Shown: positions 12,261 to 55,730 of the stretch, piece after piece | How the letters are laid out: the number at the start of each line of letters is the position of its first letter | How positions within the stretch are numbered: position 1 is the first letter of the stretch | From: Phormidium tenue FACHB-1052 | GTDB lineage: Bacteria; Cyanobacteriota; Cyanobacteriia; Phormidesmidales; Phormidesmidaceae | DNA: 64,000 nucleotides | NCBI RefSeq assembly: GCF_014696675.1 | Contig: NZ_JACJQN010000015.1 | Coordinates: forward strand, 62,001 to 126,000 | Direction of reading: 5' to 3' | Notes under the pieces: model-generated | Told to the model about the DNA's origin: nothing | Databases searched by the model: none | What the model saw: the letters and a program-made list of their open reading frames with translations, nothing else | Translations under genes and position numbers: made by a program

Positions 12261-13406
12261 ATGAACAATTACTCAATCATCATGCTCGGCCCTAGTGGCT
12301 CAGGGAAGACTGTATTCCTATCTAGTTTGTATAAGAAGCTTTCAACACAGAGTGATTTAGGATTTTTCCTTCAGGTCGATACTGCTGAAAAGCGTAAGCG
12401 ACTAAATAATATTTATACGCAAATTGCTGCCGACGAGAAATGGCCTTCTGGTACGAGATACAGCGAAGTTTCAGAATGGACATTTACTTGCCGAGTTCAA
12501 AATCCAAGCGATTTGTCAATTTATGATGCCTGTTCATTTACATACCTTGACTATGCCGGGGGAAGAATTACTGAAGAAGCCGATGAGGAAGATGGAAGTT
12601 TAGATTTTAGCGATAGATTTAAGGCAGCGGATGCTCTGCTGGGATTATTAGACGGCCAAAAGCTGTGTGCATTAATGAAAAAAGAAAAACTAGGTACAGT
12701 TTGGGCAGTTAACGACTTACGTAATATGATCGATGTAATGCAAGGGTCTCGTAGGCCTGTTCACTTTGTCATTAGCAAGTGGGATATTGTTGAGCAGAGC
12801 TACACACTAGAGCAAATTAGAGATCAATTGCTTGAAATTGATGAATTTAAGAACTTAGTCGGACTTAGAAACCACGCTGGTTCACCTGTCCGTCTTATTC
12901 CAGTCAGTGCAGTAGGCAAAGGCTTTGCGATTGCACAAGCTGATGGCAGCATGAAAAAGACAGGTGAATTACCTAAGCCATTTCAAGTTGAGGTTCCACT
13001 GGCTTGTATTCTGCCTGACATGATACAAGCGATGATAGAAGAGTTAGTGAAGAAGCGCGAATCTGAGCTAGAAACACCTATAGAGGTTAAACCTGATATA
13101 GGCTTTCTTGACTTCCTCGGCCAACTGTTTGCTGGAGGAGTAAAGGTAGTTCAAGATCTTCTGCCAAGGAAGTACCAATTTGCAGATGATGTTCTTAAAA
13201 CTCTAATAGAGTGGGCAGAAACTCCTGCGCAACAAAAAGTTGCCTTTGCCGCAAGAAGAACTGAAGAGCTAAGACGAGAACAAGCGGACTCTTTAAAGAG
13301 AGTAGCAAATGAAGAATCCGCTCTAGCGCATTCTATAAATTGTTTTGTATCAATTCAAAATCAACTTGCTTATCGGTTTCCTGCTTCTGAGTTAAGAGTA
13401 CTATGA
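12261..13406 (+). CDS. P-loop GTPase (TRAFAC / double-GTPase-like) of a putative conflict system
   Basis: A 381-residue protein with all core GTPase motifs: G1/Walker A GPSGSGKT at residues 10-17, a G3-type DYAG at 97-100 after a hydrophobic strand, and a G4-type SKWD at 172-175 (in place of N/TKxD). The motif order and the phrase SGKTVFLSSLY resemble the stand-alone GTPases found in bacterial GTPase-associated and NTP-dependent conflict systems. After residue 245 the protein becomes helical and charged, and it may be a switch or oligomerisation region. Its stop overlaps the start of the WD40 gene by 4 bases, so the two are surely co-translated. Exact family membership needs a profile search. 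Confidence 0.75.
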   Translation: MNNYSIIMLGPSGSGKTVFLSSLYKKLSTQSDLGFFLQVDTAEKRKRLNNIYTQIAADEKWPSGTRYSEVSEWTFTCRVQNPSDLSIYDACSFTYLDYAGGRITEEADEEDGSLDFSDRFKAADALLGLLDGQKLCALMKKEKLGTVWAVNDLRNMIDVMQGSRRPVHFVISKWDIVEQSYTLEQIRDQLLEIDEFKNLVGLRNHAGSPVRLIPVSAVGKGFAIAQADGSMKKTGELPKPFQVEVPLACILPDMIQAMIEELVKKRESELETPIEVKPDIGFLDFLGQLFAGGVKVVQDLLPRKYQFADDVLKTLIEWAETPAQQKVAFAARRTEELRREQADSLKRVANEESALAHSINCFVSIQNQLAYRFPASELRVL

Positions 13407-14968
13407 GCGAAATTCAAGCTTGGCGATTTCTAGTTAGCCGAAATCAATTTCTGGACTACAGAACCGTAGTAGCTCCTGACTTTATGTGCCAAGTTAACAT
13501 TGCTAGTCTTTTAGCAAAAACAGCAGAGGGTGATCCTATCGATGATAATCTGGCTTACTATCGAGAAATTTATGGATCAAAATGTGGAGATTTAACCATT
13601 ATTTATCGGGTTCATGAGGCTCAAGCTAAGGAAATTAACGATGGTGCAGAAGGAATCCTCAAAGATTCTTTCGGCAGGGAAATCTACCTCATAGAAGGAG
13701 TTGTTTTAAGAGGCATTCAAGCTTCTCTTGCCATAATGCTTGAATGCCTAGACTTTAATCATCAGCAACTTATTGAAGATTACCGTAATTTTTGGGAATG
13801 GGTTGCACCTCAATCGGCAATACCATCCGAAGTAAAAATACTCGCTCTTACAAATGGTACAGCGCTTGAGAAAATTAATTTGCCGCCCTATTCTCTTGGC
13901 AATAAGGGAGCTACTAGAAATATATCAGTAAAGGATAATTATAAAGAATTAGATGGACTTGATGAATTCACGCATAATCTGCGTAAGCCACAATCAATTG
14001 ATTTTTACGAAGAAATATATCAATGCTATTTTTTAAATGATGAGGAGATTCTGGTTTATCTCGGAGCAAGCCCAGTAGTCCCTCAAAATCGTAAAGTTGT
14101 GCTTTTTAATATCCAGACGGAGAATAGCCAGAATTTAATCGAGGGTGAACTTTTTACGCGCTCTATAGAAAATATCCACTTATCTTTTGATAGAAATACT
14201 CTAATCAGTTCAAATAGGAGATTCCTAGGCAAGGATGAAAGCTCACAGCATTTAGGGCCAGGGGCTTCTTTCCTTCCTTATTTTCTCAAAGCCTATATTT
14301 TCTCAAGTAAGAGGGAGGTCGTAATCTATGAAGGTGGTGGTGACATAATTGCTATTTCTAAGGATGGCAAGTGGGTAATTAATGCTTCTAGTAATCATTT
14401 AAATCCTGAACTTTTTGATATTAAAGGAGGTGGAAAGAAAATACTAGTGGGGGGACATAAGCATAAAATCACTTATGTGGCCTCAAGTTCTTATAATAAT
14501 GTGTTTGCAAGTGGTGACGAGAGCGGTTTTATTCGTCTATGGAGTTGTGACTCTTTTGACTCTATCGGAGGATTAGAGGTGTTCGATGACTCTATAGATG
14601 CTATTGCATTTTCTCCTCGTACTAGATTGCTCGTTTGTAGTGGAGATAAAGGAGAAATAAGAACAGTTGATTATAGAGATACCGTCGGTGCTAAGAACTC
14701 TCGAGAAAGAATCGGTACACATATAGGAACAAAAGGAAAAAAAACGAAAGTAAATGCTCTGTGCTTTAGCAGTGATGGCAAAATATTTGCTAGTGCAGGT
14801 GATGATGGATCGATAAGAATTTGGGATATTAGTAAAGGCCAAACTCAAGATGGCCAGCTATTATCTGGTCATTACAGACCCGTAACGTCGGTCAGCTTTA
14901 GCCCTAACGGAAGATTTCTTGCTAGTGGTAGCAAGGACTATACTGTAAAAATATGGCAACTTATTTAG
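13403..14968 (+). CDS. WD40-repeat protein with unrecognised N-terminal domain, GTPase partner
   Basis: A 521-residue protein. From about residue 350 to the end there are four WD40-type blades with the signatures FASGDESGFIRLW, VCSGDKGEIRTVD, FASAGDDGSIRIWD and LASGSKDYTVKIW; earlier beta-rich sequence (about 205-345) may supply more blades. The N-terminal 200 residues are mixed alpha/beta and match nothing I know. They have no visible nuclease, protease or membrane motif. WD40 propellers in bacterial conflict systems usually act as sensors or scaffolds. The 4-base overlap with the GTPase gene implies a fixed partnership, with the unknown N-terminal domain a possible effector or adaptor. Confidence 0.75.
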   Translation: MSEIQAWRFLVSRNQFLDYRTVVAPDFMCQVNIASLLAKTAEGDPIDDNLAYYREIYGSKCGDLTIIYRVHEAQAKEINDGAEGILKDSFGREIYLIEGVVLRGIQASLAIMLECLDFNHQQLIEDYRNFWEWVAPQSAIPSEVKILALTNGTALEKINLPPYSLGNKGATRNISVKDNYKELDGLDEFTHNLRKPQSIDFYEEIYQCYFLNDEEILVYLGASPVVPQNRKVVLFNIQTENSQNLIEGELFTRSIENIHLSFDRNTLISSNRRFLGKDESSQHLGPGASFLPYFLKAYIFSSKREVVIYEGGGDIIAISKDGKWVINASSNHLNPELFDIKGGGKKILVGGHKHKITYVASSSYNNVFASGDESGFIRLWSCDSFDSIGGLEVFDDSIDAIAFSPRTRLLVCSGDKGEIRTVDYRDTVGAKNSRERIGTHIGTKGKKTKVNALCFSSDGKIFASAGDDGSIRIWDISKGQTQDGQLLSGHYRPVTSVSFSPNGRFLASGSKDYTVKIWQLI

Positions 14969-27423: not shown

Positions 27424-30400
27424 ATGGATGTCAACGAGCAAATTGAGCTGACCCGCGCCTACGGCGAGCACTTTAGGGCGGGCCACGCCTTCAAAAACAT
27501 CGTCGAGGCCAGGGCGTTCGCGGCGACGGTTCTGGGGGTGCCTGTCGAGCCCTCGACCATGCTCGCCAAGGAAGTGGATGAGGCGATTGAGTCGGGCCTG
27601 GTGCAGGCGGCCCGGCAGATAGTGGCGCAATCCGAGGGCGATCACCTGCTGGCCTTTGACGACCTGCTATCGCTCTATGAGGCTCAGCCCAACCTGCTGG
27701 TCAGAACCTCCGACAGCATGGCTCGGCAAGCCTACTCCACCCCGTTGCCCATGGCCTTTGTAGCAGGGCTGATCGCCCAAGTGCATCCCTCGGTGACCGT
27801 CTACGAACCCACGGCGGGCAATGGTTCCCTGCTGCTGCTAGCCGACCCAGCCCAGGCGATCGCCAACGAGCTCCATCCCCCCCGCGCGGCACATCTGAGA
27901 TCGCAAGGGTTTACGGTCACCGAACACGACGCCACCCAGTACCGACCGGATCGCCCCTATGACGTGCTGGTGAGCAATCCTCCCTTTGGCCTGCTGCGCG
28001 AGAACGGCACCGGGCCACCCCAGCGCTGGCAGCATGGCCCCGTCAGCACCCAGAAGATCGACCATGCGATCGCACTCCAGGCTTTACAGGGACTGGCTCC
28101 AGAGGGCAGGGCGTTACTCATCATCGGCGGCCACATGGGCAATGCCAGCGCCCGCCAATCGGCCTACCGAGGACAGGCCGACCGCAGTTTTTATTCCTTT
28201 CTCTACCAGCAGAGCGGCTGGAAGGTAGACGATCACTTCACCCTGCACGGCTCGATGTACCGACGGCAGGGAGCCGGGTTTCCTATAGATTTCATCTCCA
28301 TCGCGGGCCAAGGCTCCACCGACCTGAGGCTGCCCGGCGCTCAAGCCCCCCGTATCTATGACCGCTATAACGATCTCCGCGAGGTAGTCATCCATGCCGC
28401 TAGAACCTATGACGCAAAGTATCTGGACATCTCCCCTCCCGTTGAGCTACGCCCTGGATCACCCCGACGAGCCGGTTCAGGTCTGGACGCCGACCCGGTG
28501 GCCAGCGATGACTCAGGCCGAGGCAGGAACCTGGTGGACGACGGTGCCGGTACCCCCCAACTCACCGTTGATGACGCTGGAGGATTACCGCGCCCGCCTT
28601 CTCTGGCTGCTAGAGGTGAAGCTGTCCCAATTCCTCCTGGACAGGCAGGCGGAGGGGATGGCACTCAGTCAGGCGATCGCCTTGGCCAATCAAAGGGTCA
28701 ACGCGGTGCTACCGGAGGCCCACTGGATGCCGGGGACCGTGAGCCCGCTGGCCCGCCTGCTGAATTTGGATTACACCCCCCTGCGGGAATTGCTGTTTCC
28801 CCAGGGGGTGGAGGAGTTTCCAGTCCTGCCGGAAGCCATGACGACCGACACCCTGGAGATGATCACCGACAGCTGGAACCTGCTCGACTGGCTGAACAAC
28901 CTGCAAGCCCTGCTGATGGAGGACTCCCGATGGTAGCTCAAGCGAATACCGAGGACGATATCCTCCAGCAACCCCAGGATGATGCCGTCACCCTGCCCTA
29001 CAGGCCGCGATCTCAGGGCTACTCCCTGGGGGTATTGGCCCCGGCCTCAGCGATCACCGCTTACAGCAACGTGTTCGACCGTATCGAAGCGACCACGGGG
29101 CTGGGAGTCGATGCCTACGTTCAAGACCGACTGCAAGAACCCGATCTCGACTCCCTCTATAGCCACTACGCAGCAGAGCAGATCGACACCCTGGCCCTGG
29201 CCATCTACAACCACGAGTACAAGCAGCAGGCGACGGTCGTCGGGCACGATACCGGCATTGGCAAAACCCGGATCGTGGCAGGCCTCTGTCGCTATGCCCA
29301 AAACCAGGGGCTAACGCCTGCGGTGGTCACCGCTGACCCCACCCTCTACAAAGACCTGGTCTACCGAGATGGGCCAGACACCGGCAACCAGTTTCGCCCC
29401 TTCATTACCGACAATGGCCTCAACGTGCGGGTTGAAGACAGCAATGGCGAGCTGATTGGGCAAATTGAAACCCCTAAAAAAAATGGGGTCAACGTGCGTC
29501 GGTTTACCGAGCTGGGCACCATTGGCGACCACAACCTGCTGATGAGTACCTACGGGCAGCTCCAGGGCCTGGCCAGCAAAGATCGGCGGGCACTGTTCGA
29601 GGCGCTGGCTCCCAACCTGTTTTTGATTGCCGACGAGTCCCACAAGGCCGGTGGCCCCGCTGGAGAGTTTGAGATCAGCAGCTACGAGGAATCCGCCAGG
29701 GCCAAGAAGATGGCCGCCGGTAAGTTTATCGCCCCAGTGACCGAGTTTTTTCAAGATCTCACCCAGCGGGTGGGCGGGTTCGTCGCTAGTTCCGCAACGG
29801 CGATCAAAGAGCCGGTGGTGGCGGCCCGGCTGTTCTACCACACCACCGATTTCAAAGATGCCGCCGAAGACCAAAAGACCTTTGCCGGGCACCTCCAGGC
29901 GGGCGGTGCCGCCATGCAGCAAATGGCCTTTGGGCTCTGGTCAGAGTCCGGTGGGTGTATTCGCTTCCAGAAAGACTACTCCGGCGTTGATTTCAGCCCA
30001 GCCCCGGTAGCCGTCAGCCTTGATCGCGCCGAGGCCAACATTCAGCTGATGGCGGCCATCAACCGCTTTGATGAGTACAAGCTAGGGCTGCTCGAAGAGC
30101 TTGATGCCCGCATGGCTGAGACCGGCGAAGCCTTATTTCGCAATGACACCCATGTGGGCTATGCCGGAGTTGAGTCAACGACCTTTACCTCGGTGGTGCA
30201 CAACCTGGGAGCGATCTGCGCGATCGCCCTCAAGGCTGAGGCTACTGCCGACCTGGCGATCGCAGAGCTAGAGGCTGGGCGCAAGCCGGTGATTATGCTT
30301 CAGCGCACCGGGGAGTCGGTGCTCAAAGACCTGGTGAAGCTGACCAACGAGGGCATTGAGGCCGATAACGCGCAGTTCCCCGACGACCAGCGATCTACCC

Positions 30401-33400
30401 TCAAGCCGGGCGATGCCTTTGACATTACGGCGGGAGAATACTTCAAGCGATACCTCAACGCCGCTCGAACGATTCGGATTGTCGGTGCCCACGAGGATGA
30501 GGGCGGCGGGAAAGTCATTCTGCCACACTACCTGACCGACGACGAACTGGGTGAGCGGGGGGTAGAGATGTATAACCAGGTGCTGACGGCGATCGAGTCC
30601 AGTGACTGGACGGGACTCCCCGCCGACCCCATTGCCTACATGGAGGCCCGCATTCGGCAGGCGGGCTACAACGCGGTAGAAATGACCGGGCGGAGCCAGC
30701 GGCTGGAGTATCAACCGACCGAAGACGGGCAATTTGTGACGACCTACCAGGCCCGTAAGTCGGGAGCCGCCGCGAAGGTAGCGACGATCGCCGGGTTCCA
30801 GAACGGCACCGTCGATGCGGTGATCACTAACCTGACCACCGGCTACTCGCTCCATGCTGCGATCAATGGGGCCACAGACCTCAGACGCCGCTCCATGCTG
30901 ATTCTTCAGGCTCACCCCGATGTCAACCAGTGTGAGCAGTCGATCGGGCGCACCCATCGCAGCGGGCAGCTCGACCCGGAGGTACACCCGGCCACCGGCA
31001 CCGACCCAGAGGGTAATCCCCTGTGGGGGCAGAAGGCCGGTGAATTTGGCCTGCCCATGTTCAAGCTCGTCTATGGGGAAGGGTTACCCACCGAGGCCAG
31101 GGCAATGGCCGTTTTGATGAATAAAATGCGGGGACTCAAGTCCAACACCGCAGGCACGGGCGAAAGCCAGTTCTCTGGGGCCGATGTGCCTGACTTTTTG
31201 AACAAGTATGGCGACCAAGCGGCAGCCAACGCCATGGCGGCGATGCCCGAGGTCAACCAAACCCTCGACTACCCTTGTAGCCCGCCCGATCAAGATGGAG
31301 AGGTTAGGTATGGCGATGTGCGCAAGCTGACCGGACGGGTGGCTATTCTGTCGAGCGATCAGCTGCCGACCCCAAATGATCCTTACCCATCCCTGGCTCT
31401 TCAGGGTGAGGTTTACGACCTGTTGATTTCCGAGTACAACGGGCTCAAGGATCGGTTGACGGCGATGGGGGCCTGGGATCTCGATGCTCAAAAGATGGAT
31501 CTAGACGCCAGGCCCCTGCGCCGCAAGATGCTTCACAACGGCGATGGGGGCAACCCGTTCCGGCAGCCTGTCTACGCCCTGGAGGTAGAGGCCAAGACCG
31601 GGGGCAAACCCCAAACCACGTTGCAGGTGGTGCAGTCAGTTTGTGATGCCCTGGAGCTGGCTAAACCCGACGACCTGGAGGGGGTTGATCTAACGGTTGA
31701 CGGTGCGATTCGCCAGGCAGGACAAGCTCATGCCCAGGAGACGGTAGTGCGGGTGACCGCAGAGGGCGACGCCTTCCGGGAGGGCAAAGCTGAGCATTTT
31801 ACAGAAGCTCTGAACCGGGCTCGCCAGCAGCTTGAGGATGCCAATACGCGGCGCGAGGGGCTGAGGGATGAGCGCGATCAGTTGACCACAGCCCTAGAAC
31901 AGGTCATCCCTGAGTACACCGCTGCTAGGGAAGCGCTGAACCAGTCGGGAGCGGTGACCCCAGAGCGGGAAGCTGAGCTAGAAGGCCAGTATGAGCAGCG
32001 CCGGGTTGAGGCTCGCAATGCTCTCAAAAAAGTTGAAGGGAAGCTAACTAAGCAGGAGCAGCGGGTCAAAAACACCGAGAAGAAGGTTGCGGATGCCGAG
32101 AAGGATAAAGCTCAGAGCGCCATGATTTTGACGGCCCAGCAGAACGGTGTGCTGGGGAAGCTGCGGGAGTTTCCCATCGGCGCTCCGGTGCAGTTGGCCT
32201 CCCTCGATACCAGCCGGGCGCTGCCAGGGGTTATCGTCGGAGTCACCCGCCAGCAAAATGCCTCCAACCCAATTAACCCTGGGTCATGGCGATTCAGGAT
32301 TGCCCTGGCGGACGAGGCCGGAGAACTGTCGGTCAAATTTAGCGAACTTGGTCGCGATGTCGCCCTCAAACCCCAGGAAAATTCCTTTGTCTTCAAGAAT
32401 CAGCCGGGGCAGGTGTTGCAGCAGTACACCGAGGTGCCGACCTACAGTGTCTTTGACGAAAAGCAGATGGCCTCCCGCGAGCATCGCATGATGGTGGTGG
32501 GCCAGGTGCTCAAGTCTGACCTCGTGGGTCGGTTTGCCCTGATGCAGGACAACGAGGGGGAGTACCACCCGGCCTACCTCCTGGCCAAGGGCATCGACGC
32601 CGGAGAGATTGATAACCGCCCGATCTCGATTCAGCAGCCCGATCAGTTGATGGCATTCCTCTCGGCAACATCGAGGGCAGCCAGCTTTACGGATCGAGAT
32701 GGCGTTCTAGACGCTGAGTTTAACCTGCGCAATGAGCTGGTGTTGACGGTGCCTACCAGCAGTGCGGGCAAGAAGTTTTACCAGGACCGAGAGCTACTCG
32801 ATCTAGCGCAGGGGGAGTTTGTTTCCGGGACTCGACGGGTGGAAGGCGACAAGCCAGGTCGCACCACCGAAGAAAAGATGATGCAGATCAAAATTGGCGA
32901 TGCCAAGGCCCAAGACGATGTGCTGACCTACCTCGTTACCCGGCGCGGCATCAAGGCCACGTCGCATTTAGATGAGGCGACCGCCGCCGTGGGAGGAGAA
33001 ACAGCAGGTTGGGAACCGGCCACCACCTGGCTCCCCGTGGGTAACGAGGTCACCAGCAGCGACCGCAGCCGGGCCATTCACCCCATTTTGCGGGCCGAGC
33101 TGGAGCGCAATCCTGGGCTCATCCCTGACCCTGACGAGGACTGGTCCCCTAGCCGCTGGGAGGTGATGAACGCTGTCTCCGATCGCCTGTATTCCGGCAG
33201 CAACCTGGCCGACCTCAAGGCCGAATTCAACCTCTACGAGCCACCCCCGCCCGCGCTGACCTTTGACACCCTGGTCAGAGGTGGGGTGTTACAGACCGAT
33301 GGGCAGCCCCTGCACTCAGAGGCGATCGCCTTCCATGAGTATCTCGGTGCCTCGTCTAGCGGTGCGACCCCTGATGTCTTGATGCAGCGGGCCGTAGAGA

Positions 33401-35607
33401 CTCTGGGCGGCGAGATATCCCAAGATAGGGCGATTGAGGCGATGGGGCGCACCTACCGCCGCCTGAGCGATCACCTGGAGGCTGGCCTGGATCTGGAGAT
33501 GGCTAAGTCCGCCATGGACAACGAGGACTCTGCCTTCTTGGGACAGTTTGCTGCCGATAGCCCTGAGCTGGAGGAACGCATTGCTGGGGCTGTGCGCCAG
33601 GTTGTCGCAGAGGCCTTTGATGAGGCGATAGCCGTCCAGACCCAGGAACAGCAAGATGAGGCTGTGCGGCAGGCGGGCCGACAGCGGTTGCGTGAGATGT
33701 CCCAGGAGGGTGGCCCCCAGGTTCTGGCACCCTCCCAGCAGACGACCCCGATCGGCCAGGCCGTTGCCCGATTGCTTCAGCAGGGCGGGCTCCAGCAGGC
33801 GGTCATGGTTGATGGGAACGACGATTTTCATCTCAGGGTGTCCAATGAACCCTACATGGATCTGGTGGTTGAAGCCCATCCTAATGGGGTGGGCGGCAGT
33901 GATTTGTACCTGACCCACTACGCCACTGGCAACGGGGATATGTGGATTGATACTGAGATGAAGATGGACATTCAGCCCGATGGACATCTTCAGTTCGTTG
34001 AAACTGCGGTGCAAGGGTTTAATGGCGGCGAACTGCGTGCCCCCGATCGCACCTTTGGCATGATATTTGCGCGGAACTTGCTGGAGCAGGGCTTTGGGGA
34101 AGCGAGCTCAGAGGCTTATCTGACCCAGTTGGGTCAGGAGGCGATGGCTGAACCGGGCCTAGAACCTGCCTCCCAACCCCTTTCTCCGCCGGAGCCTTTG
34201 AGTCCCTTAGATGCGCTATTCCAACAGCGCCCCGATCTGTTCCATGAGTTTGATCGGTCTGAATTTGAGGCACTGGCTGCCGACTCGCCTGAAATGCTCT
34301 ATCAGGACGGTGAGCGGGGATTCTTATGGTTGGAGGGCCACAATAATCCCTATGCCTATCAGCAAGATGCGGTGAGAGATGCCTTGGCTGGGGCATCAGT
34401 GCCTCACCTGGCATCAGCCTACGATCCGCAGGTTATCCCGGATACGACGATATTGGGAGGGGTCGTAGGAGCCACGGAGATGCGGCCAGCCCAAGATATT
34501 TATGACGATCTGGGGCTGGTGGTGCAACCCTTGTACCCTCAATCCTCTCAGGATGCGCCTGTCAGCAGTTCGTCGCCGCAGCCTGACCCGTCCACCGATG
34601 TAGATGAGGTATTGATTCTCGATCTTGACCCTGGGCTACACCATCCACCGCCCCCGGCGGTAGAGGTGCCAACGGGGTCTCCTGGGCTTGAGGCGCTCGA
34701 ACGTGGTGGCGCTGTACTCACCTTTGAGGCTGGGGAGCGACTTTGGGAACTACAGCTTTCCCAGGATGAGCTGGCCATGGTCAACGCCTCCATGCAAAAT
34801 GCTAAGGCCGTAGTGCGTGAGAGTGGCACAGAGGTTGGGGCTCAATGGATGGAGCAAGCGGCCAATACCATCGCCACCAAAGCCTTAGGCGATGAGTACG
34901 GAGACCCCGTGAACATCAGAGGTGCTGTTGGTCAACTGATGGCGGAGTTCTATACCTCGCTGGATGCAGAGGTCAACCCTGCCATTCAAAGTGCTACGCC
35001 ATCTGAGCGGCAGGCCAATCCCGGTGGAGTAAATTTGCCCCCTACGCTTCCCACCGCCGAGCAACCCTCCGTTGATGCTCTGCCCGAGTCGTCGCCGGTT
35101 GCCCTAGCAGAGCCGGTACAGAGCCAGGCTCTGCTTAAAGATTTGCGTGAATGGTATTCCCAGGCGCGGGCCTTGGGGCGATCGCCGTTGCACCTGGAGC
35201 GCATTGAGCAGATCGGCCAAGCGGTCAAATCGGGGCATGAGGGGGAGTACGGCGACGTAGACAGAATCACACGTCAGCACGACCAAAAGGCCTATCTTCA
35301 GCAGGCCGCTAACGTTTTGGCTCAGTCTAAATACCTGTTAGCTCAGTTAGGGCAAGACCAGCCCGATGGCTCAAAAGTCTTTGCTGGCAAGACCTATACC
35401 CTTCTCAGTCAGGGCGATGCGATCGCGGTTTCGGCGAGAGAACGAGGCGAAATTTTTAACGCCAAGGGCAGCCGAGTCTTGCACAGTCAGGGGCTGAGTG
35501 CCGAAGATGCCCACAAGTTTAGTGCCCAAGTGTCTCGGGTGCGACAGGCACTAGCGGCACAAGCTACCCCTCACTCAGCTGCTATCCCGGCTGTTTATGA
35601 TCGGTAG
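27424..35607 (+). CDS. N6-adenine methyltransferase / strawberry-notch-like helicase reading frame
   Basis: One uninterrupted 2727-codon frame. Residues 75-330 form an amino-methyltransferase domain with catalytic NPPF in the phrase VSNPPFG. Residues 500-1290 form a helicase of the strawberry-notch / SNF2-related type: a GHDTGIGKT Walker A, an IADESHKAG box, and a C-terminal segment with QSIGRTHRSGQ. A long coiled coil follows (about 1460-1565), then a poorly conserved tail ending in a beta-rich DRG-type module. Similar giant proteins occur on phages and plasmids (DarB-like) and may modify and guard incoming DNA. The stretch 28394-28936 reads as Pro/Gly-rich filler in this frame and as a proper protein in another. 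A strong ribosome-binding site precedes ATG 28930, so the helicase may be a separate 2225-residue protein. Confidence 0.8.
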   Translation: MDVNEQIELTRAYGEHFRAGHAFKNIVEARAFAATVLGVPVEPSTMLAKEVDEAIESGLVQAARQIVAQSEGDHLLAFDDLLSLYEAQPNLLVRTSDSMARQAYSTPLPMAFVAGLIAQVHPSVTVYEPTAGNGSLLLLADPAQAIANELHPPRAAHLRSQGFTVTEHDATQYRPDRPYDVLVSNPPFGLLRENGTGPPQRWQHGPVSTQKIDHAIALQALQGLAPEGRALLIIGGHMGNASARQSAYRGQADRSFYSFLYQQSGWKVDDHFTLHGSMYRRQGAGFPIDFISIAGQGSTDLRLPGAQAPRIYDRYNDLREVVIHAARTYDAKYLDISPPVELRPGSPRRAGSGLDADPVASDDSGRGRNLVDDGAGTPQLTVDDAGGLPRPPSLAARGEAVPIPPGQAGGGDGTQSGDRLGQSKGQRGATGGPLDAGDREPAGPPAEFGLHPPAGIAVSPGGGGVSSPAGSHDDRHPGDDHRQLEPARLAEQPASPADGGLPMVAQANTEDDILQQPQDDAVTLPYRPRSQGYSLGVLAPASAITAYSNVFDRIEATTGLGVDAYVQDRLQEPDLDSLYSHYAAEQIDTLALAIYNHEYKQQATVVGHDTGIGKTRIVAGLCRYAQNQGLTPAVVTADPTLYKDLVYRDGPDTGNQFRPFITDNGLNVRVEDSNGELIGQIETPKKNGVNVRRFTELGTIGDHNLLMSTYGQLQGLASKDRRALFEALAPNLFLIADESHKAGGPAGEFEISSYEESARAKKMAAGKFIAPVTEFFQDLTQRVGGFVASSATAIKEPVVAARLFYHTTDFKDAAEDQKTFAGHLQAGGAAMQQMAFGLWSESGGCIRFQKDYSGVDFSPAPVAVSLDRAEANIQLMAAINRFDEYKLGLLEELDARMAETGEALFRNDTHVGYAGVESTTFTSVVHNLGAICAIALKAEATADLAIAELEAGRKPVIMLQRTGESVLKDLVKLTNEGIEADNAQFPDDQRSTLKPGDAFDITAGEYFKRYLNAARTIRIVGAHEDEGGGKVILPHYLTDDELGERGVEMYNQVLTAIESSDWTGLPADPIAYMEARIRQAGYNAVEMTGRSQRLEYQPTEDGQFVTTYQARKSGAAAKVATIAGFQNGTVDAVITNLTTGYSLHAAINGATDLRRRSMLILQAHPDVNQCEQSIGRTHRSGQLDPEVHPATGTDPEGNPLWGQKAGEFGLPMFKLVYGEGLPTEARAMAVLMNKMRGLKSNTAGTGESQFSGADVPDFLNKYGDQAAANAMAAMPEVNQTLDYPCSPPDQDGEVRYGDVRKLTGRVAILSSDQLPTPNDPYPSLALQGEVYDLLISEYNGLKDRLTAMGAWDLDAQKMDLDARPLRRKMLHNGDGGNPFRQPVYALEVEAKTGGKPQTTLQVVQSVCDALELAKPDDLEGVDLTVDGAIRQAGQAHAQETVVRVTAEGDAFREGKAEHFTEALNRARQQLEDANTRREGLRDERDQLTTALEQVIPEYTAAREALNQSGAVTPEREAELEGQYEQRRVEARNALKKVEGKLTKQEQRVKNTEKKVADAEKDKAQSAMILTAQQNGVLGKLREFPIGAPVQLASLDTSRALPGVIVGVTRQQNASNPINPGSWRFRIALADEAGELSVKFSELGRDVALKPQENSFVFKNQPGQVLQQYTEVPTYSVFDEKQMASREHRMMVVGQVLKSDLVGRFALMQDNEGEYHPAYLLAKGIDAGEIDNRPISIQQPDQLMAFLSATSRAASFTDRDGVLDAEFNLRNELVLTVPTSSAGKKFYQDRELLDLAQGEFVSGTRRVEGDKPGRTTEEKMMQIKIGDAKAQDDVLTYLVTRRGIKATSHLDEATAAVGGETAGWEPATTWLPVGNEVTSSDRSRAIHPILRAELERNPGLIPDPDEDWSPSRWEVMNAVSDRLYSGSNLADLKAEFNLYEPPPPALTFDTLVRGGVLQTDGQPLHSEAIAFHEYLGASSSGATPDVLMQRAVETLGGEISQDRAIEAMGRTYRRLSDHLEAGLDLEMAKSAMDNEDSAFLGQFAADSPELEERIAGAVRQVVAEAFDEAIAVQTQEQQDEAVRQAGRQRLREMSQEGGPQVLAPSQQTTPIGQAVARLLQQGGLQQAVMVDGNDDFHLRVSNEPYMDLVVEAHPNGVGGSDLYLTHYATGNGDMWIDTEMKMDIQPDGHLQFVETAVQGFNGGELRAPDRTFGMIFARNLLEQGFGEASSEAYLTQLGQEAMAEPGLEPASQPLSPPEPLSPLDALFQQRPDLFHEFDRSEFEALAADSPEMLYQDGERGFLWLEGHNNPYAYQQDAVRDALAGASVPHLASAYDPQVIPDTTILGGVVGATEMRPAQDIYDDLGLVVQPLYPQSSQDAPVSSSSPQPDPSTDVDEVLILDLDPGLHHPPPPAVEVPTGSPGLEALERGGAVLTFEAGERLWELQLSQDELAMVNASMQNAKAVVRESGTEVGAQWMEQAANTIATKALGDEYGDPVNIRGAVGQLMAEFYTSLDAEVNPAIQSATPSERQANPGGVNLPPTLPTAEQPSVDALPESSPVALAEPVQSQALLKDLREWYSQARALGRSPLHLERIEQIGQAVKSGHEGEYGDVDRITRQHDQKAYLQQAANVLAQSKYLLAQLGQDQPDGSKVFAGKTYTLLSQGDAIAVSARERGEIFNAKGSRVLHSQGLSAEDAHKFSAQVSRVRQALAAQATPHSAAIPAVYDR
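28394..28936 (+). CDS. 180-residue protein overprinted on the methyltransferase-helicase frame
   Basis: This frame encodes a well-formed, Leu/Trp-rich helical protein (for example LEDYRARLLWLLEVKLSQF and the tail SWNLLDWLNNLQALLMED). The large frame over the same bases gives a Gly/Pro/Asp-rich sequence of the kind produced by a wrong frame. A GAGG at 28381-28384 lies 9 bases before its ATG. Its TAG overlaps the internal ATG 28930 of the helicase part. Both signs favour a real gene between a methyltransferase and a helicase gene. The puzzle is that the methyltransferase frame then has no stop of its own. Function unknown. Confidence 0.55.
   Translation: MPLEPMTQSIWTSPLPLSYALDHPDEPVQVWTPTRWPAMTQAEAGTWWTTVPVPPNSPLMTLEDYRARLLWLLEVKLSQFLLDRQAEGMALSQAIALANQRVNAVLPEAHWMPGTVSPLARLLNLDYTPLRELLFPQGVEEFPVLPEAMTTDTLEMITDSWNLLDWLNNLQALLMEDSRW
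28918..28932 (+). promoter_or_regulatory. Ribosome-binding site and ATG inside the long frame
   Basis: GGAGGA at 28918-28923 sits 6 bases before an in-frame ATG at 28930-28932, and this ATG overlaps the TAG of the 180-residue gene. It is a near-ideal start site and argues that the helicase part is translated on its own, coupled to the overlapping gene. Confidence 0.6.
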
Positions 35608-38409: not shown

Positions 38410-39210
38410 TTACAGTCCTGGAACTCGTTCTAAAAGGCCTTGAACAACCAGCATTTCAAACTGGGAGCGGATGGCCTTAGCGAGAACGCGATCGCGCATC
38501 AGTACCCCAGCCTCAATGTTGCGCTCATGGGCCGCTTCGGTGAAGTTAGCGGAGGTGATCAGCAGGCGCTCTTCATCGACGACAACGCACTTGGCGTGGA
38601 GGCAGGCGTTAGACCCGGCGGTCATTAGCATGGTGCGGGGGTCGTGAAAGACTTCTGGCAGGCGTTGACCGGGCCAGACGCGCTGGCGAAAGGTCTCGGT
38701 AAACTGCCGGAGCAGTACAGTGGCTGGGGTACGGTCTTGGTACTTACGTTTGACGTTGAGGAACATTCTGACCTGGAGGGCGGGATTGGCATCCATTCGC
38801 TGGGCCAGGGGGCGAAAGAGGTCGTAGCCTTTGGTGCCCTGGTCGATGGCAAAGCTGGAGATCAGCACGCTGTGCTGGGCGCTGCTAAAGAGCTCGCGCA
38901 CCACAATGCCGGTATCTCGGCTTTCGCTACCTAGGACTTCTGGCCCCGTCCACACCAAGTCCACCTGATCTTGTTTGGCCTGGGATGCGGCCCGCTCTTC
39001 GGCGAGTAATTTGAGCATGTAGGCGAGCGGCCTGGGGGCCATGCCCTGCTGGTGTAGGTGGTTAATTTCCTGGACGACGGCGGCTAAACCCTGCTCGGGC
39101 ACGTAGGTACACAAAGAGACGGTTGAAACCGGCAGACTAAGCCTGCCAGACTCTAGAGCCTCGGCAATGCCCAGTAGGGCTGGGCGACTTAGCCGCACAA
39201 AGGGCGACAT
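38410..39210 (-). CDS. drmC: DrmC, phospholipase-D-like protein of DISARM
   Basis: A 266-residue protein with one phospholipase D HKD motif: LHAKCVVVDEERLLITSANFT near residues 205-225, containing H-x-K-x4-D and the downstream S-A-N. This is the domain type of DrmC, the last gene of DISARM operons, and it follows drmB directly (its ATG shares a base with the drmB stop). DrmC was reported as non-essential for protection in the Bacillus class 2 system, so its role is open. It is the 3' end of the operon and faces the SGNH gene. Confidence 0.85.
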   Translation of the reverse strand: MSPFVRLSRPALLGIAEALESGRLSLPVSTVSLCTYVPEQGLAAVVQEINHLHQQGMAPRPLAYMLKLLAEERAASQAKQDQVDLVWTGPEVLGSESRDTGIVVRELFSSAQHSVLISSFAIDQGTKGYDLFRPLAQRMDANPALQVRMFLNVKRKYQDRTPATVLLRQFTETFRQRVWPGQRLPEVFHDPRTMLMTAGSNACLHAKCVVVDEERLLITSANFTEAAHERNIEAGVLMRDRVLAKAIRSQFEMLVVQGLLERVPGL

Positions 39211-41111
39211 CAGTACACTCCATCGGGAAAGAACTCGGCTCCTAACCCCTCAACAGTGCTGGTGACCAAGGCACGATCAAGCATCTCGTTGCGCCGTTCG
39301 CAGGAGGTTTCGGCAATAAGCAGGCAGCCGTGGCAGGCCGCCCCTTGCAGGAATCGGTCTTCCTGGACGTTATCGGGCTCGTGCTGGGCGCAAACCGGGT
39401 CGTTGGAGCAGAGCCGCCCCTGCTCCAGGGCCTTACCGAGGTGGTACTCAATCCGTCTGCCAACCTCGACTAGGCCACCCAAGGTGCCTTCAGAACCCGA
39501 GGTGCCGGTGTGGAGGAGAATGCCGTAGCCGATATCTGGGAAGGCATAGATCCGCTCACGGATGGCGCTGGAGGCGTAGCCACACTCCAGAGATACAGCG
39601 GTGATCAGCAGGTGGGAGAGGGAGTGGAGCATGATGTAGGCTTCACCGGGAAACTTGGCCTTGTCTTGGGGGATGCCCCGGTTCTCTGCCCATTTGCTAA
39701 AGCCCTGATTGAGAGCCTTGGTTCGGTCAATCACGTTTTGCCGTTGTTGCCAGCGTTCTACCTGTTCTTTGTTGAAGCTGATGAAAACCCCCTCGCCTAG
39801 GTTCTCAATCGCGGGCACCCAGTTGGGCTCAAAGTCTAGGCTGGCTCGGCGTACACCAATAGCTAGATCGTCGATTTCCCCTTCGATGTTGGTTTGAGCC
39901 GCCTCGAAACGGGTGAAGCCGATCAGGGCCAACACCTCCCTTAGGCGATGCACCAGGACAACTTTATCGATGAAAGGTTGCCACTTAGGCTCTAGAGAAC
40001 TGGGTTTGCGGGTATAGCCTTCAAAGATCTTGTCGCTGGAGGGAGCCTCTTTGCCTTTCTCTTCAGGACAGGCCAGTAATGCCTCCAGTTCCACCTGTTT
40101 GATGCTTTTGTCGGGGGTAGAAAGACCGGCTTTGCGGCGTTTAATCTCAGCCCAGACGGCCTCTGCGCCAAACTCTACCAGGTCGGCAAACTTGGCTTTG
40201 CGCAGCTCCTTGGTGACGTCAGCGATGTCTTCGGTGTATTGCAGGTCTTCTTCGTAGAAGCGGTCAACGGCCTGCTTCAGCGCAGCATCCTTGTCGGGCA
40301 TGGAGATGACGCTGAGGATTTGGCTGAAGTAGGCGTTGCTGGCCGATCGCACCAAGAGCCGGTTGTACTCGGGCTTATCGGTGGCGATAATCTCGCCAGT
40401 ATCGGTGACCCGGTGGCGGCGGCAGGATTCTTTGCCTCGGGCACCCAGCCAGGGGCGGTGGCCTTCGCAGGCTCCTAGCACCTTGGAGTCAGTGATCTTG
40501 GCCTGAGAGAGGGGGCGCAGGCTGGCGCACTGCTCGCACCTCACAAAGATTTCTTCAAAATCGTTGCCGGAACCGGCTTCATCGAGCCAGAGCTGGCCCC
40601 GGCACTTGGCCTGGAAGTCGTTGTGGACAAAGGCGTTCCAGTTAATGTCGCTGAGGTGGCCATTGGTGCAGGCCTGCACAAAGCGCACCGGCACCGCCTG
40701 CACTGATTTACCTTCAAACCGGGCTCCCCCCTTGACGGCGCTCCAAGAAATCAGGGGGCGGGTGCGGTAGGATTTGCCCGCTCGCTCAATCGTGCGATCG
40801 ATCTGGGCGAGAAACCAGGTGGGGAACACGAGGGCATCAACGCCGCTGATAGGCGCTTTGGGGTCGCTAGTTTTGCTCGGTGGGCCAAAGAGTTTAACCT
40901 CGTGGCCATCGGGCAGGTTGAGGCTCTTGGCCACCTTGTACTTAAGGCGGTCTTCTCGGATGTAGGGCTTGTCGCCTTTCCAGTAGCTGAGGCCTGAAAT
41001 AATCACCGACCGGGCGGGTAGGTCTACCATCGAACCGGGGCCGAAGGTGGTGAGCATTTGGCTCTGGCGCAGTTCGCCGCTGGCTTTTTTGGTTTTGTTG
41101 GGCTGGCTCAT
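39210..41111 (-). CDS. drmB: DrmB, DUF1998 protein of DISARM
   Basis: A 633-residue protein starting with a basic tail and the phrase SQMLTTFGPGSMVDLP, typical of DrmB N-termini. The C-terminal 130 residues form the DUF1998 region, with a cluster of cysteines (CSNDPVC, CHGC, and a later Cys) that probably binds zinc. An additional Cys cluster lies near residues 185-235. DrmB forms a complex with the DrmA helicase in characterised DISARM systems. The start overlaps the drmA stop by 4 bases. Confidence 0.9.
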   Translation of the reverse strand: MSQPNKTKKASGELRQSQMLTTFGPGSMVDLPARSVIISGLSYWKGDKPYIREDRLKYKVAKSLNLPDGHEVKLFGPPSKTSDPKAPISGVDALVFPTWFLAQIDRTIERAGKSYRTRPLISWSAVKGGARFEGKSVQAVPVRFVQACTNGHLSDINWNAFVHNDFQAKCRGQLWLDEAGSGNDFEEIFVRCEQCASLRPLSQAKITDSKVLGACEGHRPWLGARGKESCRRHRVTDTGEIIATDKPEYNRLLVRSASNAYFSQILSVISMPDKDAALKQAVDRFYEEDLQYTEDIADVTKELRKAKFADLVEFGAEAVWAEIKRRKAGLSTPDKSIKQVELEALLACPEEKGKEAPSSDKIFEGYTRKPSSLEPKWQPFIDKVVLVHRLREVLALIGFTRFEAAQTNIEGEIDDLAIGVRRASLDFEPNWVPAIENLGEGVFISFNKEQVERWQQRQNVIDRTKALNQGFSKWAENRGIPQDKAKFPGEAYIMLHSLSHLLITAVSLECGYASSAIRERIYAFPDIGYGILLHTGTSGSEGTLGGLVEVGRRIEYHLGKALEQGRLCSNDPVCAQHEPDNVQEDRFLQGAACHGCLLIAETSCERRNEMLDRALVTSTVEGLGAEFFPDGVY

Positions 41112-44100
41112 TCGTCGTCTCCGGCTACGCCTTCCATGGTGTACGGGTCTCGAATCCAGAGGTTGACGCTGGCTTCTACGTCGCGCAGGCTGCGCTGGGT
41201 CTTAAACTTTTGCTCATCGGCGGGGCGTTTCTCGGCAGACAAATCGAGGGCATCGACCAGCAGGGCAGGGGCCAGGTCGGTCTCTTTTTGGTATTGCAAG
41301 CGGGTTTCGCGGGTCAAAATTCGCTCCCAGGTATCGAGCAAGTCAGTGACCTGCGATCGCACCCTCACCCGCAGATCATTCGCCGCTTCACCATCTAGAT
41401 CAGGACTGTGGCCCTCGGCCCGGCGGGCAATGGCTTCCACCATGGCCGCGACCGCTGCCCGTTGGTCGGTCAGGTTAGAGGCCCCCATTGGGCTGGTCAT
41501 CGCGGGTACGCCTAGTCGAGCCAGGGCTACCATGACTCCCGCTAGCCCGCGATCCAGCGCCCGAGGCGAGAACGGGGTAACGCTGGTGGCCTCGACCGCT
41601 CGGTAGAAGCTGTTGTGCCAGCTTTCAAAGCGCTCATAGTGGGAGCGATCGCGGGGTCGGTGAATGTTCATCAGTGTTACCACCAGCCCCGGCTTGTTCT
41701 TGTCGCGCCCGACCCGACTAGTGGCCTGGATGTATTCAGCGGCGGTCTTGGGTTGCCCCAGCACCACCATCAGGCCCAGGCGAATAATATCGAGGCCCAC
41801 TGAAATCATGTTGGTGGCCAGGGCCACATCGACCCGGTCATCTTCGTGGAAAGGGGTGGAGAGGCGGCGCTTGGTGTTAGCGATTTTGTTGGTGCTCACC
41901 CGCGAGGTCAGTTCTTCCGGCATCTCGTCAATTTTGCGGTCGAGGAAGGGGCCGACTAGCTCACCCTCTCGCAGGCGATCGCTGTACTTGGTCAGGCGAG
42001 AGTTGACCTCGTCCTCCACAATGCGGCGGCTGCCCCCCAGTTCTCGCAGGGAGTTGAAGTAGCCCATCAGGGTCATGTAAGGGTCAGCGGGGTTGTTTTT
42101 ATTGCGCTTGCCCCCAGCTTCTACCCACTGTTTCTGGGCTGCCGCTAGCAGGGCCAGATAGACCCGCAGCAAAATCACTTTTAAGCTGCGACCCTGGGCG
42201 GCCACCCCCACGTAGAGCCGACCGGGCGCTTGAAAGTCGGTTTTAGCAAAAAATGAATCGTGGCGATCCGGGCCAGGGGGCGGAAAGATATCGACTTGGC
42301 TGCGGCCAAAGAGGGCCTGGATCTGGCGGCTAGCCCGACGCACCGTGGCCGTGGAGGCAATCACCTTGGGGCGAATGGTATGGCCATTCTCTTCGCGGCA
42401 GCACAGCGTATCGATCGCCGTTTCGTAGAGTCCTACCATCGTTCCCAGGGGGCCAGAAATCAGGTGTAGCTCGTCCTGAATGATCAGGTCGGGTGGGGGA
42501 AGATAGCCCGCTAAGGGGCGTCCCGCAGTCGTGGGGTCACCGGAGCTATAAAAGCCTTCGCCCTCCTGGTAGTGAGTGACTCGACCAAACAGGGCACCCG
42601 TTTGGCCGACCCAGGGCAGGGCCGCAAACTTATCGACGGTGGCGATGATGAAGCAGGGCAAGCGGCGGTAGATCGGCTCGTCTACAGCCAGGATGGGTAA
42701 AGGATTGCGGCTGCGGAAGTCGCAACTTCGGTTAACGCAGACAATTTTGAGGGTTTTGGGCGCGTCTTCGGTGGGCAAGAGCTGGAAGGAGTTGGTGGTA
42801 AAGCCCTCGCCGCACCAGGGGCAGCGCTCTAGGGGAATGGGAGAGGGTTTACTCTTGCTGTCTCGCTTAAAGTCCAAGGTGCGATCGCGGGCCGAATACT
42901 CATCTTTATCGCCCCGTTTGCCCATGCGGTTGGGGGTAGCCCCCTGGCCCACCCAGAGGCCGATTTCAAAGGGCCAGGTGCCCAGTTTGTCGGGCACCTT
43001 TTGCCGCTCTAGCTCTAGGGCGCAGATCAGGCGCGAGGCCCGCTCTAGCTGGTCGAGGGTGAGCAGACGTAGGGTGTAGCGCATCAGCACGCTCAGGCCA
43101 GCGGCCTGGATGCCGGGGTACTTGAGCCGCCGCAAAATTAGGGTGAAGGCGGCTAGGCCCAGATAGGCCTCGGTCTTACCGCCCCCGGTGGGGAAGAACA
43201 GCAGGTCTACTGTCTTGCGATCGTCGTGGATGGGGTCAGCTAGCCCCACCAGGTTGAGCAAAATAAAGGCGAGCTGGAAGGGTCTCCAGGTAGGTTCTGA
43301 AAAGCTCTCGGGGGGGTGGCCCTCTTCTTGACTGAGCTGGCGGCGGCGGGCGGTGGCGATCGCCCGATTGGCCACTTGAAAGGCCTCTAGCACCTGGGGG
43401 TCTTGTAGAGCATTGAGACCGGCTTCGATGCGATCGCAGACCCGACTCGCCCGATCCAGCAGGTTTCTGGCCACGTTAGCAGCTTCCTGGGGGCTGATGG
43501 CTACAGCCCGCTGGGTGGCAATCCAGGCGCGGTATTCGGTGACCAGTGGCCCTACCATGCCGCGAATGGCGGCGGCATCGGCGGCTAAGGCTAGAGATTC
43601 CATGCCCAGCTGTACCCCTTTTGGAGCGGTGGGGGCCACGCGGGGCACTTCAGCGATCGGTATCCAGGTGGTGCAGACTTCGGTGCAGCGGCTGCCCTGG
43701 GCATCTATAGCTAGGGCCGAGACGTTGTGGCCCACGGCAAATTCGTAGTCGTCGCGGTACTGGAGAGCGGCCACGGCCTCATCCCAATCGTCGGTGCTGA
43801 CGCCTCGGGGGTCGGGTCGAGGCACAAACCCCTCGGTGCAGCGAATATTGAGGTGAGTTTGAAAGGCAAAGGTGGCGTCGCGCTCCCCGGAGGTGACCTG
43901 GCGATAGTTAACCAAAAAGACCGATACCGCTTTAGTGCCGTAGGGGAAGCGGTTATCCAGCACGGGGCGACAGGTGACCACCAGGTTGAGGCCGCTGCCG
44001 CCGGGGATGTCGATGGCAAAGGGCTCGGGTCGTTCTTCAATGGGGACGGTGAGAGCGGCCTGTTGGGGTACCCGCTGCCATTGTTCGGGCTTTTTCTTGC

Positions 44101-44509
44101 GCTTCGACTTGCCCTGTCCCTCTTCGGGGTCGTCCTCTACGGGGGTGAGGGGAATGTAGTCGCCCCAGGTGACTTGGGCCTCTAGAGTGGTGGTTTTGCC
44201 CGATAGTAAGCAGCTCAGCCCCATGGAGGAGGGAAACAAGGCTTTGCGGGCGGCGGGTTTGTCGGGAGTTTTGCTGTCCTCGCTGGAGTCGCTGGTGGTG
44301 ACTTCCTCGGGTAGGTCGTCGTCGGCATCGTCGTCGGAGCGCAGGTCGGGGGGTGCGCCAAAGGGGGCCAAAAAGCCGGTCAGGTACCACTTGGAGGGAG
44401 CCTGCCTGAGGATTTCCTCGGCGTGGTCGGTGTTTTGGGGGGTGGGACCGACCAGGTCAATGTTGAGGGCATCCACCAGGGTGGCGCGAATTTCGGCGGA
44501 GGTAGTCAT
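41108..44509 (-). CDS. drmA: DrmA, superfamily 2 helicase of DISARM
   Basis: An 1133-residue protein with Walker A FPTGGGKTEAY near residue 440, a DEXH-type box in LIIQDELHLI near 680, and the C-terminal helicase motifs MISVGLDIIRLGL and YIQATSRVGR near 895-935. An acidic low-complexity stretch lies near residues 55-90 and a basic one near 130-140. DrmA with DrmB is the core of all DISARM classes and acts on invading DNA. It is separated from the rest of the operon upstream by five toxin-antitoxin type genes and lies 47 bases after the PIN gene. Confidence 0.92.
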   Translation of the reverse strand: MTTSAEIRATLVDALNIDLVGPTPQNTDHAEEILRQAPSKWYLTGFLAPFGAPPDLRSDDDADDDLPEEVTTSDSSEDSKTPDKPAARKALFPSSMGLSCLLSGKTTTLEAQVTWGDYIPLTPVEDDPEEGQGKSKRKKKPEQWQRVPQQAALTVPIEERPEPFAIDIPGGSGLNLVVTCRPVLDNRFPYGTKAVSVFLVNYRQVTSGERDATFAFQTHLNIRCTEGFVPRPDPRGVSTDDWDEAVAALQYRDDYEFAVGHNVSALAIDAQGSRCTEVCTTWIPIAEVPRVAPTAPKGVQLGMESLALAADAAAIRGMVGPLVTEYRAWIATQRAVAISPQEAANVARNLLDRASRVCDRIEAGLNALQDPQVLEAFQVANRAIATARRRQLSQEEGHPPESFSEPTWRPFQLAFILLNLVGLADPIHDDRKTVDLLFFPTGGGKTEAYLGLAAFTLILRRLKYPGIQAAGLSVLMRYTLRLLTLDQLERASRLICALELERQKVPDKLGTWPFEIGLWVGQGATPNRMGKRGDKDEYSARDRTLDFKRDSKSKPSPIPLERCPWCGEGFTTNSFQLLPTEDAPKTLKIVCVNRSCDFRSRNPLPILAVDEPIYRRLPCFIIATVDKFAALPWVGQTGALFGRVTHYQEGEGFYSSGDPTTAGRPLAGYLPPPDLIIQDELHLISGPLGTMVGLYETAIDTLCCREENGHTIRPKVIASTATVRRASRQIQALFGRSQVDIFPPPGPDRHDSFFAKTDFQAPGRLYVGVAAQGRSLKVILLRVYLALLAAAQKQWVEAGGKRNKNNPADPYMTLMGYFNSLRELGGSRRIVEDEVNSRLTKYSDRLREGELVGPFLDRKIDEMPEELTSRVSTNKIANTKRRLSTPFHEDDRVDVALATNMISVGLDIIRLGLMVVLGQPKTAAEYIQATSRVGRDKNKPGLVVTLMNIHRPRDRSHYERFESWHNSFYRAVEATSVTPFSPRALDRGLAGVMVALARLGVPAMTSPMGASNLTDQRAAVAAMVEAIARRAEGHSPDLDGEAANDLRVRVRSQVTDLLDTWERILTRETRLQYQKETDLAPALLVDALDLSAEKRPADEQKFKTQRSLRDVEASVNLWIRDPYTMEGVAGDDE

Positions 44510-44556
44510 GGTGTCAGATCCTAAATAGCAGCAGGGCGGCCTACGGGGTTAGCCCA

Positions 44557-45057
44557 TCAATCCAGTTCACCGGCTTGGCGCAGGGCGATGTTAATTACAG
44601 TCTCGCTGAGGCGAATTTTGCGGCTGAGCATGTTGTCGATGGCGGATTTAACTGAGAGTGACGGATCTTTTTGTTTGGCTTTTAGCAAAATGCCGACGGA
44701 GCCGGTTAACGTTAGGCCGCTGAGTCGGGCAACTCGCCGCCCAACGGCTTCATCAATGCAAACGGTGGTGATGTTTTGGTCGAGGGCCAGTTGAATAACA
44801 GAGGCTTCTCCCAGGTCGAGGGCGTTGAGCAGAAAGGGAGATATAGCTAGGGCAGTGGTTTGTTTGTGAAGCCAGGTAGCCTGCTCAAACTCAGGGACGG
44901 CAAATTGGCTGGTGCCCCCTCTTGAGATTTCTTGGCAGACCTCGAAGGGCACCCAAACCTTTTCATAGAGAGGCTCTAAGCGGGTTAAGTCTCCCCAGGC
45001 TGCTACTAGCGCGATGAGGGGAGAGGTGTTGATCACAATCTGGGTTGTCTCAGGCAT
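44557..45057 (-). CDS. PIN-domain protein, DUF3368 type (putative toxin)
   Basis: A 166-residue protein from ATG 45057, chosen because it overlaps the antitoxin stop by 8 bases; an upstream in-frame start at 45096 is possible. The N-terminal strand reads VINTSPLIAL, with Asn where many PIN nucleases have the first metal-binding Asp. LDLGEASVIQLAL provides a later acidic site, and VCIDEAVGRRVA the next. This is the pattern of DUF3368 proteins, which pair with UPF0175 antitoxins. The Asn substitution raises the question of whether it is an active RNase. Confidence 0.8.
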   Translation of the reverse strand: MPETTQIVINTSPLIALVAAWGDLTRLEPLYEKVWVPFEVCQEISRGGTSQFAVPEFEQATWLHKQTTALAISPFLLNALDLGEASVIQLALDQNITTVCIDEAVGRRVARLSGLTLTGSVGILLKAKQKDPSLSVKSAIDNMLSRKIRLSETVINIALRQAGELD

Positions 45058-45304: not shown

Positions 45305-45352
45305 GGGGCTTTGTCTCGATGGTTGGGGTTACGACTAGAAACTGCTTAACGT

Positions 45353-46217: not shown

Positions 46218-46221
46218 AGGT

Positions 46222-50346: not shown

Positions 50347-50395
50347 GGTGACAATGAACTGTATTGCAGAAAAATGCTTACTTTGAGAGTGCTGC

Positions 50396-52381: not shown

Positions 52382-52389
52382 TGCGTCTG

Positions 52390-55658: not shown

Positions 55659-55730
55659 ATCTTTTCCTGGCAAGTGACCCGAAAGTTCTAGACGCCCTTA
55701 TCGCTCTTTCTCAGCCATTTTAGCTACGCA

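Follow-up and report, generated by a model that had tools for sequence, protein, structure and literature searches.

Adenine methyltransferases joined to an SF2 helicase, sometimes of the strawberry-notch-like type, have been described as a DNA methylase-helicase dyad carried by plasmids, phages, and conjugative elements, where they are proposed to protect or mark incoming DNA (Iyer et al. 2017, PMC5512222). The locus studied here has this architecture, with N6_Mtase and Helicase_C_4 in one polypeptide and the NPPF motif present, but its linker appears to encode another protein, while the main text of that paper does not contain the word "overlap" and its section on the dyad presents no second gene. 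In phage P1, a protein of 146 aa, Ulx, is listed as a helper in the localization of the methyltransferase-helicase antirestriction protein DarB (PMC9024508, PMC12810830); its gene lies next to that of DarB but is a separate, downstream one. The closest precedent found is the HNH endonuclease hidden in a phage methylase, the ShiLan domain (PMC11855218), in which a second protein is likewise encoded out of frame in a mobile-element methylase that stays open in the host frame. Long ORFs lying over annotated genes are also known from E. coli O157:H7 (PMC9927249, PMC7103648), but those cases are antisense, whereas the overlap described below is on the same strand and occurs in many lineages. No published report of it was found in the open-access literature searched.

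The locus in the window

The window is the whole 64,000-nt stretch of Phormidium tenue FACHB-1052 that was analyzed. Its methyltransferase-helicase gene is a single long open frame (Table 1), the product of which matched the Pfam families N6_Mtase (3.7e-06), Helicase_C_4 (1.9e-07), and DUF6908 (1.7e-17). A sequence-only reading had drawn attention to a dual-frame stretch between the two domains, and the observation proved real and, if anything, understated. The 2,727-aa frame runs open through the whole of the smaller ORF. The two start signals that it had named are also present; the internal ATG of the helicase is in the fused frame, with an overlap of the TAG of the middle gene (28934-28936). 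Its contrast between a filler-like fused frame and a regular protein in the other frame is borne out by the share of order-promoting residues within the overlap, 18% in the fused frame against 47% in the 180-aa frame. The linker of the fused protein is probably disordered. We consider these 540 bp to be, very probably, a true same-strand overlapping gene from which both the fused protein and a small acidic protein would be made, with a helicase-alone product as a further possibility.

Table 1. Features of the methyltransferase-helicase locus (window positions)
Feature	Coordinates	Strand	Remarks
Fused methyltransferase-linker-helicase ORF	27424..35607	+	2,727 aa, one open frame
Adenine methyltransferase part	27424..28398	+	SNPPF at residues 184-188; methyltransferase profile A2 ends at ~28398
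Shine-Dalgarno-like GAGGT of the candidate overprinted gene	28381..28385	+	8 nt before ATG 28394
Candidate overprinted "middle" gene	28394..28936	+	180 aa, ATG...TAG, +1 frame relative to the fused ORF
Fused-protein linker	28399..28929	+	Gly/Pro/Asp/Arg-rich, read in the fused frame
GGAGGA ribosome site of the internal helicase start	28918..28923	+	6 nt before ATG 28930
Strawberry-notch-type helicase part	28930..35607	+	possible own start at ATG 28930

By methyltransferase, the closest named relatives of the window are Nodosilinea and Leptolyngbya, and its own genome has a second copy on another contig (C12). A gene for a type IV secretion coupling protein lies in the window at 8725-10602. The same contig stretch also holds a DISARM defense operon detected by PADLOC (38410-55673, minus strand: DrmC, DrmB, DrmA, DrmMI, and DrmD), inside which there is a 680-aa gene without a match (50396-52438), and a GTPase-like gene (DO-GTPase1) followed by a WD40-repeat gene (12261-14968).

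Reading frames and start signals in related loci

Relatives were gathered through the methyltransferase and not through the small ORF. The resulting 179 loci comprised 80 of the 120 confirmed relatives on genome contigs, 80 of the 188 on IMG/VR contigs, 15 plasmid or phage records, and 4 from the genus of the window. Both domains lay in one open frame in 156 of them (fused loci) and were split in five, while 18 had no usable helicase match, being contig ends, permuted loci (L041, L109, and L119), loci with other helicases (L048 and L049), or short, probably broken methyltransferases (L124, L125, and L130 among them). Five loci with no convincing junction ORF by eye (L045, L046, L047, L115, and L120) were excluded from the small-protein statistics and retained in the 156-locus frame test. 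L005 and L006, duplicates of L054 and L053, were removed from the start-site, four-fold, composition, codon-usage, and charge counts, and the 156 fused loci include further near-duplicates. Host names are those given by the records, because some carrier genomes are metagenome bins.

The +1 frame stayed open for 80 codons past the methyltransferase in 154 of the 156 fused loci, the exceptions being an Acinetobacter (L046) and a Serratia (L047), and the +2 frame in none. As a control, the +1 frame was open in 3/156 inside the methyltransferase and in 0/156 inside the helicase, and removal of twelve near-duplicates left 142 of 144 open past the methyltransferase. The three reverse-strand frames of the linker were open over 80 codons in 54, 58, and 31 of the 156 loci, and so the linker is stop-poor on the reverse strand. 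When an iterated profile built from the family of the window was run against the six-frame set of all loci, it recovered 129 segments in the +1 frame (E < 1e-3) and none in the fused frame. Of its five other matches, two were in loci that lacked a helicase anchor, the standalone L041 being one, two were in split loci (L063 and L098), and the last, a second copy nearby, was on the reverse strand of L096.

Carriers joined by the profile included cyanobacteria, a Desulfovibrio, a Rhodospirillales, a gammaproteobacterial metagenome-assembled genome, and many viral contigs. Of the 151 small ORFs, 24 stayed outside the profile, including the ones in Thalassospira, a Bacteroides phage, and a Moraniibacteriota record; these share position and frame with the rest and may be either very divergent members or a separate family. 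No convincing homologous ORF was found at the locus in Pseudomonas, Acinetobacter, and Serratia (L045 to L047) or in Persicobacter (L044). In wider searches, the middle profile was present in 7 of 386 genomes across the phylum and in 25 of 63 across the family. Among nine annotated overlapping records, the middle gene was annotated in Gloeobacter only (the plasmid gene tables are incomplete), and there the fused frame is open even though the small and helicase genes are annotated separately. In plasmid pAQ6 of Picosynechococcus PCC 7002 (L244, 4692-10574), a cyanobacterium in common laboratory use, the overprinted ORF (5539-6090) is intact inside the fused gene, the methyltransferase part of which matches its profile only from profile position 117 onward. 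L112, L134, L141, L208, and others have linkers of ~600 to 1,800 nt, in which the overprinted ORF takes up the first part only and further sequence precedes the helicase.

Within the genus of the window, both frames are open in three other genomes, where identity to the small protein of the window reaches 93, 93, and 73%; in the most distant of the three, the fused-frame linker has 57 to 58% identity in its two central 60-column blocks. A match to the small protein adjoins 28 of the 29 helicase places in the genus (paired by eye), the exception being a partial match. The pattern that the sequence-only reading had named as refuting it, a single fusion with a conserved linker over an alternative frame without conservation, was not what we found among close relatives, where the alternative frame is the better conserved of the two.

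To place the start of the small ORF, scanning began 45 nt upstream of where the methyltransferase profile ends and stopped at the first ATG, a choice made by position and ATG and not by Shine-Dalgarno match. Of 149 loci, 146 have an ATG as start, and in 142 the start falls between -25 and +20 nt relative to the profile end, two figures that are partly inflated by this rule. The same does not apply to the ribosome site: a 6-nt Shine-Dalgarno match preceded 78 of the 149 small-ORF starts, against 104 of 5,951 other off-frame ATGs, and AAGGAG is often found in relatives at the position of the GAGGT of the window. These signals bear on programmed frameshifting, in which the small frame would be joined to either the methyltransferase or the helicase and become a domain of an alternative fusion. 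The sequence-only reading had offered frameshifting as one way to obtain both a fused and a separate helicase, and the small frame of L083 is indeed continuous with the helicase frame, but that locus comes from a metagenome-assembled genome in which one indel suffices. Frameshifting is not required, given an ATG and, in most loci, a Shine-Dalgarno site that belong to the small ORF itself, and we regard it as highly improbable.

For a separate start of the helicase, an ATG in the fused frame was counted within -30 to +45 nt of the stop of the small ORF in 133 of the 149 loci, the 16 with long linkers being left out. It was present in 56 of the 72 loci from genomes, plasmids, and phage records, 30 of them with a Shine-Dalgarno-like 4-mer, and in none of the 61 viral-contig loci, where the helicase would be reached via the fusion or another kind of start. 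Of the two sets, only the first makes the proposal of a fused plus a separate helicase plausible. This holds for the window, which belongs to the group with a good internal site, and for other cellular records, as a local feature.

Constraint on both frames and rearranged loci

In order to estimate how many stops the fused frame should contain, the residues of the small protein were kept fixed while their synonymous codons were drawn anew from those used elsewhere in the fused gene. At the locus in the window, 4.9 stops were expected in the fused frame, which was open in 0.55% of the draws. Over 151 loci, 1,079 stops were expected and none was seen, and among 85 non-redundant fused loci (middle proteins <60% identical) the expectation was ~565, again with none. 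The fused frame was open by chance in ≤1% of draws at 123 of the 151 loci. The choice of loci by their open fused frame hardly matters here, because 156 of the 161 loci in which both domains were located are fused.

Silent sites of the small frame are also slowed. In 32 independent pairs, four-fold sites differed at 488/1,915 (0.255) in the small frame, compared with 1,261/3,226 (0.391) in the methyltransferase flank and 1,537/4,010 (0.383) in the helicase flank, and the small frame was lower than the flanks in 30 of the 32. With the sites at which T would make a stop removed, the values became 0.264 versus 0.390 and 0.381, so stop avoidance alone does not explain the difference. At the protein level, the small protein was on average 51% identical and the linker 39% in pairs of the 0.7 helicase-identity bin, and in 182 of the 188 pairs it was the small protein that scored higher. 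In the 0.4 and 0.5 bins, the linker was slightly higher on average (the small protein led in 741 of 2,436 and 657 of 1,945 pairs), which may be an alignment effect of low complexity. Codon usage of the small frame was nearer to the flanks than that of the linker in 90 of 149 loci, with no clear preference for the small frame.

None of the five split loci has a stop that simply ends the methyltransferase before an intact small gene. In L063, L083, and L108, a long open frame still spans the small ORF, and the break in the fusion as a whole lies at another point; L098 is broken; and in Persicobacter (L044), the methyltransferase and the helicase are two separate genes with no small gene. In L083 (3914-8945), the methyltransferase frame is open to 5440, and the junction at which the small frame runs on into that of the helicase involves a one-base change, either real or an assembly error.

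Three permuted loci, L041 (a Leptolyngbya boryana plasmid), L232, and L233, have the order small gene, helicase, and methyltransferase, with the last two fused. Their small gene stands alone just before the helicase, and neither of the other two forward frames is open across it. In a methyltransferase tree (built quickly, with some long branches and an arbitrary root), the three formed one clade (SH-aLRT 99) inside an overlapping cyanobacterial clade. This nested position indicates that the free small gene was most likely derived from the overlapping state, and once freed it survived and stayed beside the helicase.

The sequence-only reading had also allowed for three ordinary genes, the methyltransferase of which had recently lost its stop, leaving a linker open by accident. 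The helicase in the group of the window does have its own ATG and a GGAGG site, the annotation of Gloeobacter lists the small gene and the helicase gene separately, and Persicobacter keeps methyltransferase and helicase apart, with the middle gene absent. However, the single open frame of 156/161 loci, extending to Gloeobacter itself, the lack of a nearby fused-frame ATG throughout the viral-contig loci tested (61/61), and the stop deficit of the 85 fused loci make a lost stop very unlikely. The dual open frames, the stop deficit, and the nested standalone clade argue instead for the other option of that reading, real overprinting, in the form of a deeply conserved gene and not of a recently lost stop.

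The predicted small acidic protein and its possible role

The predicted small proteins range from 83 to 233 residues across the relatives and are acidic, with a median net charge of -11 and a pI of <5 in 130 of 149; that of the window has a net charge of -13 and a pI of 4.3. The share of order-promoting residues was 40% for the small proteins and 18.5% for the linkers, with the small protein ahead in all 149 loci. Over 70 members, W31, P33, R72, P143, L163, and W166 are near-invariant. AlphaFold2 gave a confident fold for a viral-contig member of 131 aa (pLDDT 95.3) and moderate fold confidence only for the protein of the window (pLDDT 76.7).

Comparison of the 70 members with Pfam, NCBIfam, PHROGs, and PADLOC gave no convincing family match; the weak ones were two members to one unnamed PHROG and one to Arm_PDR, and the protein of the window alone had two weak NCBIfam matches, far below the cut-offs. 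The best E value in a PDB sequence search with the small protein was 0.063. Foldseek found no match with an E value of <0.5 for the window and viral-contig models against the PDB or for the viral-contig model against BFVD, and VIA-align on the viral-contig model returned none with Z ≥ 2. As a sole query, the small protein of the window had no relative among viral contigs or plasmids, and that of the viral contig had none among phages or plasmids. Going by these comparisons, the small acidic protein appears unclassified, with no convincing counterpart among the families and solved folds searched.

Ulx was tried as a homolog of the middle protein and rejected (score -2.2, E = 0.55 in a two-protein search). 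In the same kind of search, DarB matched the methyltransferase profile weakly (E = 0.0003), and the helicase query was not significant (E = 0.11). P1 darB (L245) has a 177-codon +1 open stretch before its helicase part (nt 1940-2470), which is Arg/Ser-rich, has its first ATG 50 codons in, and has no profile match; the probability of its being open is 0.0018, a value for a chosen stretch.

The resemblance to ShiLan, likewise open in the methylase frame of its host with the ORF hidden in another (PMC11855218), would suit a selfish homing element inserted out of frame. Unlike that domain, the small ORF shows no HNH or other endonuclease family in any of the 70 members, is near-universal in the fused relatives (154/156) and not sporadic, begins with an ATG and a Shine-Dalgarno site instead of a GTG without one, and occupies a fixed domain junction; its derived standalone copies remain next to the helicase. 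A homing insert is accordingly a highly improbable origin. As for a chance open frame produced by G+C-rich, stop-poor, low-complexity linker coding, the small frame is open with P > 0.05 in 92 of 151 loci when the linker residues are held fixed, the reverse-strand frames are often open as well, and a 121-aa Arg/Ser-rich +1 ORF with a GGAGG site in Pseudomonas looks spurious, but loci at 38% G+C (L143 and L145) still have the ribosome site and match the protein profile, it is the small frame and not the linker that resembles a folded protein, standalone homologs exist, and the +2 frame is never open, leaving this explanation a next to negligible chance.

With overprinting as the preferred reading, one mRNA would give the methyltransferase-linker-helicase protein by straight read-through, and internal initiation in the +1 frame, where the methyltransferase domain ends and the small ORF has its Shine-Dalgarno site and ATG, would give the small acidic protein. 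A third product, the helicase alone, may start at the ATG beside the small stop in the window and in many other cyanobacterial loci. By architecture, the fused protein is of the antirestriction type, the kind of methyltransferase-translocase for which a role in shielding mobile DNA that enters a cell from restriction by the host has been proposed. That the small gene adjoins the start of the helicase, also in the permuted loci, suggests that its product is a partner of this enzyme, perhaps as a regulator or as a loading or localization factor, and from its charge alone a DNA mimic is possible.

A bolder version, which we hold tentatively and think somewhat more apt to be wrong than right, is that overprinting fixed an unrecognized family of small acidic proteins in the linker of mobile-element methyltransferase-helicases before the cyanobacterial, proteobacterial, and viral lineages sampled here diverged, and that the small protein is either a subunit that the enzyme requires or an inhibitor built into it (a DNA mimic, perhaps), the linker itself being a by-product of out-of-frame read-through of the older gene. 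If so, the overlap would tie the two products together, and neither could be lost or freely changed without the other.

Overlapping genes are known as a kind; what sets this one apart is its depth, position, and near-universality. An overlap of 83 to 233 codons, with ribosome sites, recurs in many cellular and viral lineages, and its standalone descendants provide natural controls. It would add an unclassified protein to a widespread antirestriction-type system, and why the overlap has been kept for so long becomes a testable question.
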